Source of the DNA: Streptosporangiales bacterium
Lineage (GTDB): Bacteria; Actinomycetota; Actinomycetes; Streptosporangiales; WHST01
Direction of reading: 5' to 3'
Length of the DNA stretch: 47,462 nucleotides
Assembly: GCA_009379825.1 (NCBI GenBank)
Contig: WHTA01000042.1
Span: forward strand, 1 to 47,462
Below, one piece after another: positions 1,990-47,462 of the stretch. The stretch's first letter is position 1. Each line of letters opens with the position of its first letter. The position numbers were made by a program, and so were the translations under genes. The notes beneath the pieces were generated by a model. That model was not told the DNA's origin. It ran no database searches and was given only the letters and a program-made list of their open reading frames with translations.

Positions 1990-3156
1990 ATGAGCCGGTA
2001 CACGGGCGGGTCGGCGCGACGTCGCTGGCTGGCGGTCGGCGTGCTCCTCGGTGCGCTCGCGGTGGTGTCGGTCGTCCCGACGGCCGCCGCGTACGGCGCG
2101 AACGGCGGCCTGGTGGCGAAGCCGGCCGAGGGCAGTGCCGGCTGGCAGGTCAGGGTCCGCGACGACTGTTACGACGACGAGGTGCGCTGCGTGTACCGCG
2201 ACACCTCCGCGTCCAGCCGGTCGGACATCTGGGCGGTAGGCGACCAGGTCGACGACGGCACCGCGGTGGCCGGCCTGCTGCGGCACTGGAACGGTGCACA
2301 CTGGGCCACCGTGGAGCCTGCGGTGCAGGGCACGCTCATCTCGGTGAGCTCGAAGTCCGCCACGCAGACCTGGGTCGCCGGGTACACCGCGACCGACGGC
2401 GGCCTCCGGCCGCTGACGCTGCGGTGGACAGGCGCCCGGCTGGAGCAGATCCCCGTGCCCGCGGGGGACGACGACACCACGCTCGCGGCGGTGTCCGTCG
2501 GCCAGGGCCGGCCGTGGCTGGTCGGTACGAGCAGCAACGGCGACGGGACGTACCGCGACCTCGCCTGGCGGTGGACCGGCTCGCAGTGGCAGGAGGTCGC
2601 CGTCCCCGATCTGTCGCCCGATGCCGGCGGCCTGATCGACGTGGCGGCGGTCGCCGAGGACGACGTGTGGGTCGTCGGCAACCGCGGCGACGGCGAGAGC
2701 CACTACGTACTGCACTGGGACGGCTCGAACTGGTCGGAGGCGAAGCTGCCGGAGCAGTCCGGCGGCTCGCACGCCACGAACATCCAGTCCGTGTACGGGC
2801 AGATCCACGTGATCGGTGGCCGCACGACCGCCGCCGAGCCGTACCGGGAACGGCCGTTCGTACAGCGCCGGGTGAACGGCTCCTGGCGTGCCGCGGCGAG
2901 CCCGCAGTACGAGGGCCGGCTGAGCACGGTCGCAAGGGACGGCGCCGGCGGTGTCTGGTTCGGCGGCAACGACTACTCGTCCGGCGCCGCGAGGCTGGAC
3001 CGCTGGGACGGCACATCGATGCGCAAGGTACCCGGCCCTGGCGGCGAGCTGGCCAGCCTGACGAACGTGCCTGGCACCACCGCCCTCTGGGCGAGCGGCG
3101 GCGCGAGCACCGACGGCGAGGGCTACCACGCCTACGTCGCCAGGCACGCACCCTGA
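1990..3156 (+). CDS. Secreted protein with propeller-like Trp-rich repeats
   Basis: Secreted protein of 388 residues with no enzyme motif that I recognise. The N-terminus has RRRW, a hydrophobic stretch (LAVGVLLGALAVVSVV) and a likely signal peptidase site near TAAAYGA, about residues 33-37. The mature part repeats the pattern xDIWAVG...LLRHWNG..W..V..P...L..VS about every 45-55 residues (WAVGDQ, WVAGYT, WLVGTS, WVVGNR, WFGGND, WASGGA). This is typical of beta-propeller or kelch-like extracellular proteins in actinobacteria. GGGGGTG just before the ATG supports the start. It converges on hisN with a 7-base gap. The fold is inferred from the repeat pattern; the function is unknown. Confidence 0.8.
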   Translation: MSRYTGGSARRRWLAVGVLLGALAVVSVVPTAAAYGANGGLVAKPAEGSAGWQVRVRDDCYDDEVRCVYRDTSASSRSDIWAVGDQVDDGTAVAGLLRHWNGAHWATVEPAVQGTLISVSSKSATQTWVAGYTATDGGLRPLTLRWTGARLEQIPVPAGDDDTTLAAVSVGQGRPWLVGTSSNGDGTYRDLAWRWTGSQWQEVAVPDLSPDAGGLIDVAAVAEDDVWVVGNRGDGESHYVLHWDGSNWSEAKLPEQSGGSHATNIQSVYGQIHVIGGRTTAAEPYRERPFVQRRVNGSWRAAASPQYEGRLSTVARDGAGGVWFGGNDYSSGAARLDRWDGTSMRKVPGPGGELASLTNVPGTTALWASGGASTDGEGYHAYVARHAP

Positions 3157-42821: not shown

Positions 42822-42910
42822 CGACCGGCACGCCACGTCGTTCCTGGTAGACCGCCCGTTCCACCAGGGGTGGCACATCGCGAGCGGAATGACGATATGG
42901 TCGAGGGGAA

Positions 42911-43000
42911 GCCGAGAGGCGCTGCAACGGGCATAGCTATGTCCGCCACGCTCGGCCCGCTAGACGAAACAAGGGCGCCTCCCAGACACTAAAGGGAGGT
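42911..43000 (+). ncRNA. S-adenosylhomocysteine (SAH) riboswitch with SD-masking hairpin
   Basis: The leader of metH carries the conserved SAH-aptamer core. P1 is GCCGAG (42911-42916) with CTCGGC (42951-42956), and the invariant GCGCTGCAA follows at 42920-42928. P2 is a hairpin at 42929-42944 with an AGCT loop, and CCACGCTCGGC matches the joining segment before the P1 3' strand. GAGGCGC (42916-42922) pairs with GCGCCTC (42975-42981), giving the pseudoknot. The same 3' strand extends to CCTCCC (42978-42983), which can instead pair with GGGAGG (42994-42999), the metH ribosome site. SAH binding should free the SD and turn translation on, as known for the class. Aptamer similarity was judged against the Ralstonia ahcY sequence from memory. 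Confidence 0.88.
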
Positions 43001-43006
43001 GAACAG

Positions 43007-46630
<3,624 letters not shown>

Positions 46631-46645: not shown

Positions 46646-47218
46646 CTAGGGCTTGCGGGCTACGCAGGCGACCATGAGCTGTTCCATCGGCGACAGCGGT
46701 CGGTGCCGTGGGCCCTCCGGCCACCAGTCCTCGGTGATCACCAGGCCGGGCGGGACCAGTTCCAGGCCGTCGAGCAGGGAGGCGATCTCGTCCCGGCTGC
46801 GGAGCGTGAAGCCGGCGCTCGCCTGCTTGAACTTGTCGTACGCCTGCATCAGCTCGGTGTAGTGCTCGCTGTCGGCGTCCGGTCGTTGCGCGTGCGTCAT
46901 CCCGACGAAGGACCCGCTCGCCAGCCGCTCGGCGTAACCCGCGATCACCCGCCGCGCGTGGTCGAGGTCGGGGATGTGGTGGACGGTGAGGCACTGCAGC
47001 AGGGCGATCGGCCGCTCCAGGTCGAGGTGTGCGGTGACGACCGGGTTGGCGAGGCTCTCCTCGGGCTCGGTGAGGTCGCCGGGGACGAAGAAGGAGTGGT
47101 CGTTGTCCTCGAGCAGCACTCTGCCGTGCGCGATCACGGCAGGGTCGTTGTCGGCGTAGACGACGACCGCGTCCGGGTTGACGCTGTGCGCGACCTCGTG
47201 CGTGTTCTCCGCCGTAGG
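46646..47218 (-). pseudogene. SAM-dependent methyltransferase (DUF574 type), 5' half lost
   Basis: C-terminal about 190 residues of a DUF574/Methyltransf_19 protein. It opens at PTAENTHEVAHSVNPDAVVVYADNDP, which in intact relatives follows the SAM-binding DxGTGLPT loop. Next come HSFFVPGDLTEP, PIALLQCLTVHHIPD, FVGMTHAQRP and RSRDEIASLLDGLELVPPGLV, ending in MEQLMVACVARKP. Upstream of the proline codon at 47216-47218 the sequence no longer resembles the family, and about 85 bases later a transposase 3' end begins. The frame extends to 47320 by chance through element sequence. Loss of the first third, including the SAM-binding glycines, should make it inactive. The element boundary is at or near 47219. 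Confidence 0.78.
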
Positions 47219-47462
47219 TACTTCGACCTGAAAAATGGTGGGCTGGGGTGACCTGGTTCGTGTTTGGTGGGTTTCTTCGAGCGTGGTCTTCCCGGGTGGC
47301 TCTTCACGCGGCCAGTGCACTGATCTTGACCAGGTTGTGGGCGAAGATGCCGTGTCCGCACCAGGTCCGGGTACCGTCGATACCGGTGAGTTCGGTGCGG
47401 TTCCAGCCGTAGCTGCGTTTGAGGTGGTTGATTCGTCCTGCGGATCCGGTGCGCCATTTGAC
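47219..47462 (-). mobile_element. Insertion sequence end inside the methyltransferase gene
   Basis: From 47219 the sequence switches abruptly from methyltransferase to 85 non-coding bases with an AT-rich patch (CTGAAAAATGG), then a transposase 3' end that leaves the window. The other end, its terminal repeat and any target duplication lie outside, so the family and exact border cannot be fixed. Confidence 0.65.
47304..47462 (-). CDS. Transposase, C-terminal fragment (runs off the window)
   Basis: The last 52 residues of a DDE-type transposase. The sequence starts VKWRTGSAGRINHLKRSYGW, continues NRTELTGIDGTRTWCGHGIF and ends AHNLVKISALAA before the stop at 47304. The R-T-G...GRI.HLKR.YG..R....G..G...WCG.G..AHNL.KI pattern is the usual C-terminus, with the final catalytic-Glu region upstream, of actinobacterial elements often filed as ISNCY or IS5-like. 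I cannot assign the family from this piece. The coding part is open at the window edge, so it may belong to an intact element beyond. It explains the truncation of the neighbouring methyltransferase. Confidence 0.75.
   Translation of the reverse strand, partial: VKWRTGSAGRINHLKRSYGWNRTELTGIDGTRTWCGHGIFAHNLVKISALAA

Follow-up and report, generated by a model that had tools for sequence, protein, structure and literature searches.

Upstream of the methionine synthase gene metH, a Streptosporangiales bacterium (assembly GCA_009379825.1) carries a short leader on contig WHTA01000042.1, analyzed here as a window of 47,462 nucleotides. The SAH riboswitch class (RF01057) has been characterized on proteobacterial ahcY leaders, and the locus raises the question of whether an RNA element of this class governs methionine synthase in an actinobacterium and, if so, in which direction. 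We put the probability at roughly 0.93 that metH is controlled by a SAH-class riboswitch acting as a translational ON switch, with SAH binding and the direction of switching predicted from sequence.

The regulated gene is well defined. A full-length metH (43007–46630, forward strand; 1207 aa, GTG start) encodes a cobalamin-dependent methionine synthase that scores 1550.6 bits against TIGR02082 (cut-off 1010.85) and 1867 bits against NF007024, also above the cut-off of that model. The aptamer ends 20 bases upstream of the GTG at position 43007, and occupies the position expected of the class, before a gene of SAH or methionine-cycle metabolism. No protein in this genome exceeds the cut-off for metE and ahcY is present, so that homocysteine is probably converted to methionine mainly or exclusively by MetH.

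The leader, like metH on the forward strand, contains P1, P2 and the conserved junction core of the SAH class. P1 is formed by GCCGAG (42911–42916) and CTCGGC (42951–42956) and is paired in all 43 leaders compared, and the conserved core GGCGCTGCAAC, starting at position 42918, matches the SAH consensus. P2 is a 7-bp hairpin (42928–42945) in which CGGGCAT (42928–42934) pairs with ATGTCCG (42939–42945) around an AGCT tetraloop (42935–42938), followed by the segment CCACGCTCGG (42946–42955). All of these features had been placed identically by a first-pass annotation of the locus. The pseudoknot linking the core to sequence further downstream, also characteristic of the class, joins AGGCGC (42917–42922) to the complementary GCGCCT (42975–42980), the latter overlapping the anti-Shine-Dalgarno (anti-SD) strand, and its pairs are standard in 43/43 leaders. 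The annotation had located this pseudoknot correctly but had given it seven pairs (42916–42922 with 42975–42981); six are free to form, because G42916 already closes P1 with C42951. The last pseudoknot pair covaries across the 43 leaders (CG in 36, TA in 5, TG in 2); the regular expression used to collect them fixed most pseudoknot columns, and the invariance of those columns arises partly by that selection. In four of the related loci (L025, L026, L042 and L048, Frankia included), P2 is enlarged, seemingly through a tandem copy of a stretch containing GCAACGG.

The covariance-model scan that the annotation had proposed as a check returned a full-length match. Using cmscan with a loosened reporting limit, positions 42908–42987 on the forward strand align with model positions 1–78 of 78 in RF01057 at 35.6 bits (E = 2.8e-5), well above chance by E-value yet 1.4 bits below the curated gathering score of 37. 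Scanned with Rfam defaults, the window gave no hit, because the metH leader scores under this threshold. The class assignment made in the annotation is thus supported by the covariance match, and the leader gave no match to RF01727, the SAM/SAH riboswitch. The sub-threshold score could also reflect a fortuitous resemblance to RF01057; against this, the leader is the sole match in the whole 6.15 Mb genome (E = 1.5e-4) and falls exactly at the metH leader. The default Rfam scan found no cobalamin riboswitch at metH in the window; B12 riboswitches occur elsewhere in the genome, outside the window.

The element recurs widely in the class. The RF01057 model detected it in 42 of 395 class genomes, 19 of them above the cut-off, and metH lay on the expected side in 30/30 loci obtained with this model, the window's own locus counted among them. 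A lineage covariance model built from 27 leaders and run on the same 395 genomes raised the number with the element to 74; the 27 training leaders match by construction, while most of the additional genomes lay outside the training set. Loci at metH were found in Amycolatopsis, Actinophytocola, Micromonospora, Frankia, Planobispora, Sinosporangium, Actinocorallia and Actinoallomurus, to which the lineage model added loci in Paractinoplanes and Actinoplanes. This recurrence in 74/395 genomes refutes a chance resemblance to RF01057, to which we assign a negligible probability, and the presence of metH beside the element in relatives supports the proposed identity of the regulated gene. At the same time, an element found in 74 of 395 class genomes, mostly at metH, is less exceptional than was implied by the emphasis that the annotation placed on its rarity in actinobacteria. 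The default Rfam cut-off evidently misses most of the actinobacterial group, given that 19 genomes pass it compared to 74 with the lineage model.

The genes found behind the element bear on the identity of the ligand. Among 20 loci fetched from the lineage-model list, and picked to cover remote and duplicate cases, 16 place the element at metH, two at ahcY (L138 and L142), one at an adenosine deaminase gene and one at a gene for a class I SAM-dependent methyltransferase. In the third case (L141, 2008–3117, reverse strand), a leader of the SAH riboswitch type at 3036–3117, with CCTCC/GGAGG anti-SD pairing, lies immediately upstream of an adenosine deaminase gene whose product exceeds the cut-offs of both NF006854 and TIGR01430; in the fourth (L143, 2221–3139, reverse strand), such a leader lies upstream of a Methyltransf_11/UbiE-like methyltransferase gene. 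The leaders of these four loci also match RF01057, all below threshold. Control of adenosine deaminase would pull SAH hydrolysis forward through the removal of adenosine. No paper in the open-access literature was found to pair the terms 'SAH riboswitch' and 'adenosine deaminase', and this target is apparently unreported so far.

An aptamer that had kept the SAH fold and drifted toward another ligand, such as SAM, adenosine or a homocysteine-related compound, might account for the fact that much of the actinobacterial group scores below threshold against RF01057, and metH and adenosine deaminase could both answer to other metabolites of the cycle. However, the conserved core and the P1/P2 junction agree with the SAH consensus, and the range of targets favors SAH itself: the enzymes encoded by the metH, ahcY, adenosine deaminase and methyltransferase genes make or remove SAH or its products, which provides independent support for SAH as the ligand. 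We therefore regard a change of ligand as very unlikely, and retain SAH as the predicted effector of the metH switch.

The expression platform offers a direct means of masking the ribosome-binding site. In the minimum-energy fold, the anti-SD strand CGCCTCCC (42976–42983, forward strand) forms an 8-bp hairpin with positions 42994–43001, which comprise the Shine-Dalgarno sequence GGGAGG (42994–42999) and two further bases and would be sequestered in the OFF state. This pairing agrees with the overlap of pseudoknot and masking strands envisaged in the first-pass annotation. When the leader is folded alone, P1, P2 and the anti-SD hairpin form and no Shine-Dalgarno base is unpaired more than 0.2% of the time; when the pseudoknot strands are held out of the fold, this value rises to 39–98%, depending on the base. 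The single-sequence fold is modestly better than those of shuffled sequences (z = -1.75). Taken in isolation, the pseudoknot helix (-10.0 kcal/mol) is less stable than the region of the anti-SD hairpin (-16.7 kcal/mol), indicating that the ON state would require the ligand and tertiary contacts, which lie outside the computed energies. A transcription terminator is an unlikely alternative function for the hairpin, which has no following U-run.

Comparative data argue that the anti-SD pairing is maintained. All six central pairs of the hairpin are possible in 42 of 43 distinct actinobacterial leaders, compared to a mean of 27.7 and a maximum of 34 in 2000 reshufflings of the anti-SD partners, a control that ignores the kinship of the leaders, applies to columns partly fixed by the collecting pattern and does not amount to a formal probability. 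The fourth pair is CG in 35 leaders, TA in 6 and TG in 2, and the sixth is CG in 36, GC in 5, GT in 1 and CA in 1. The hairpin thus appears to be under selection, as it is difficult to account in another way for two pairs with two-sided changes. Since the expression platform adopts this hairpin in its minimum-energy fold, it could be argued that the hairpin alone matters, as a constitutive or thermosensing RNA structure downstream of a non-functional relic. That reading is at odds with the covariation in the pseudoknot and with the alignment of 30 leaders, in which 37 invariant columns coincide with the SAH consensus for P1, core and pseudoknot and fall for the most part in the aptamer core and pseudoknot, not in the hairpin loop; we consider it even less probable than a change of ligand.

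Under the SAH riboswitch model that we favor, one strand would serve two mutually exclusive structures, the SAH-bound pseudoknot (ON) and the anti-SD hairpin (OFF). In the absence of SAH, positions 42976–42983 would pair with the ribosome-binding site (42994–43001) and metH would be poorly translated. Accumulating SAH would be bound by the aptamer composed of P1, P2 and the pseudoknot, and the pseudoknot (42917–42922 with 42975–42980) would then withdraw the masking strand from the ribosome site, allowing translation of metH. MetH would in turn remethylate homocysteine, the product of SAH hydrolysis, to methionine. The predicted ON direction derives from the anatomy of the leader and from analogy with the known class; the same logic, put forward in the annotation, draws support from the covariance match, the recurrence of metH and the covariation of the anti-SD hairpin. 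Judging by the distribution of targets, methionine synthase would be the chief point of action of the SAH signal in many actinobacteria, which would couple homocysteine removal to SAH load. A modest practical benefit is that the switch is compact and its ON/OFF design easy to read.

The leader shares with the RF01057 class P1, P2, the invariant core, the pseudoknot and a translational ON logic that would free the ribosome site; it differs in preceding metH, in contrast to the ahcY leaders of the class, and in its membership of an actinobacterial group whose scores fall mostly below the Rfam cut-off. The SAH riboswitch regulons of Proteobacteria, as outlined in PMC4239095, have an ahcY/metF core, with metH a taxon-specific target in Comamonadaceae. 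Control of metH by a SAH riboswitch is consequently already known; relative to those regulons, metH is here the principal target and the host an actinobacterium. RF01727, as described in PMC7367207 and PMC4239095, is an H-type pseudoknot of Rhodobacterales metK leaders; it shares with the metH leader a pseudoknot that binds SAH, such binding being a prediction for metH, and the two differ in the H-type architecture and metK location of the former. In the passages of open-access papers that we examined, a scope outside which the primary papers of the class lie, we found no account of metH under a SAH riboswitch in actinobacteria. The element is real and well formed but ordinary, with the same arrangement recurring in many related bacteria; how widely the group extends among actinobacteria, and its adenosine deaminase target, may be less known, and earlier accounts may exist. 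The chances appear evenly balanced that these leaders represent an actinobacterial subtype of the SAH riboswitch, largely below the Rfam cut-off, in which the pseudoknot strand pairs directly with the ribosome site and which serves a SAH-recycling regulon broader than the one known (chiefly metH, with ahcY, adenosine deaminase and methyltransferase).

In two genus mates (L112 and L113), the best MetH is just 37% identical and the element is absent, which makes them unsuitable as a source of closely related leaders, whereas the window MetH is 76–80% identical to that of several other actinobacterial genera. It is possible that metH and its switch were replaced together, or that differential loss occurred. 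Elsewhere, two different tandem ahcY-like genes (G000:C22:43468-46239; L122 and L123) both exceed the ahcY cut-off and neither has a SAH element; the second, in which an internal segment is missing, may have a different substrate. Within the window, a gene for a Methyltransf_19 (PF04672) SAM-dependent methyltransferase (46646–47320, reverse strand) lies convergent with metH.
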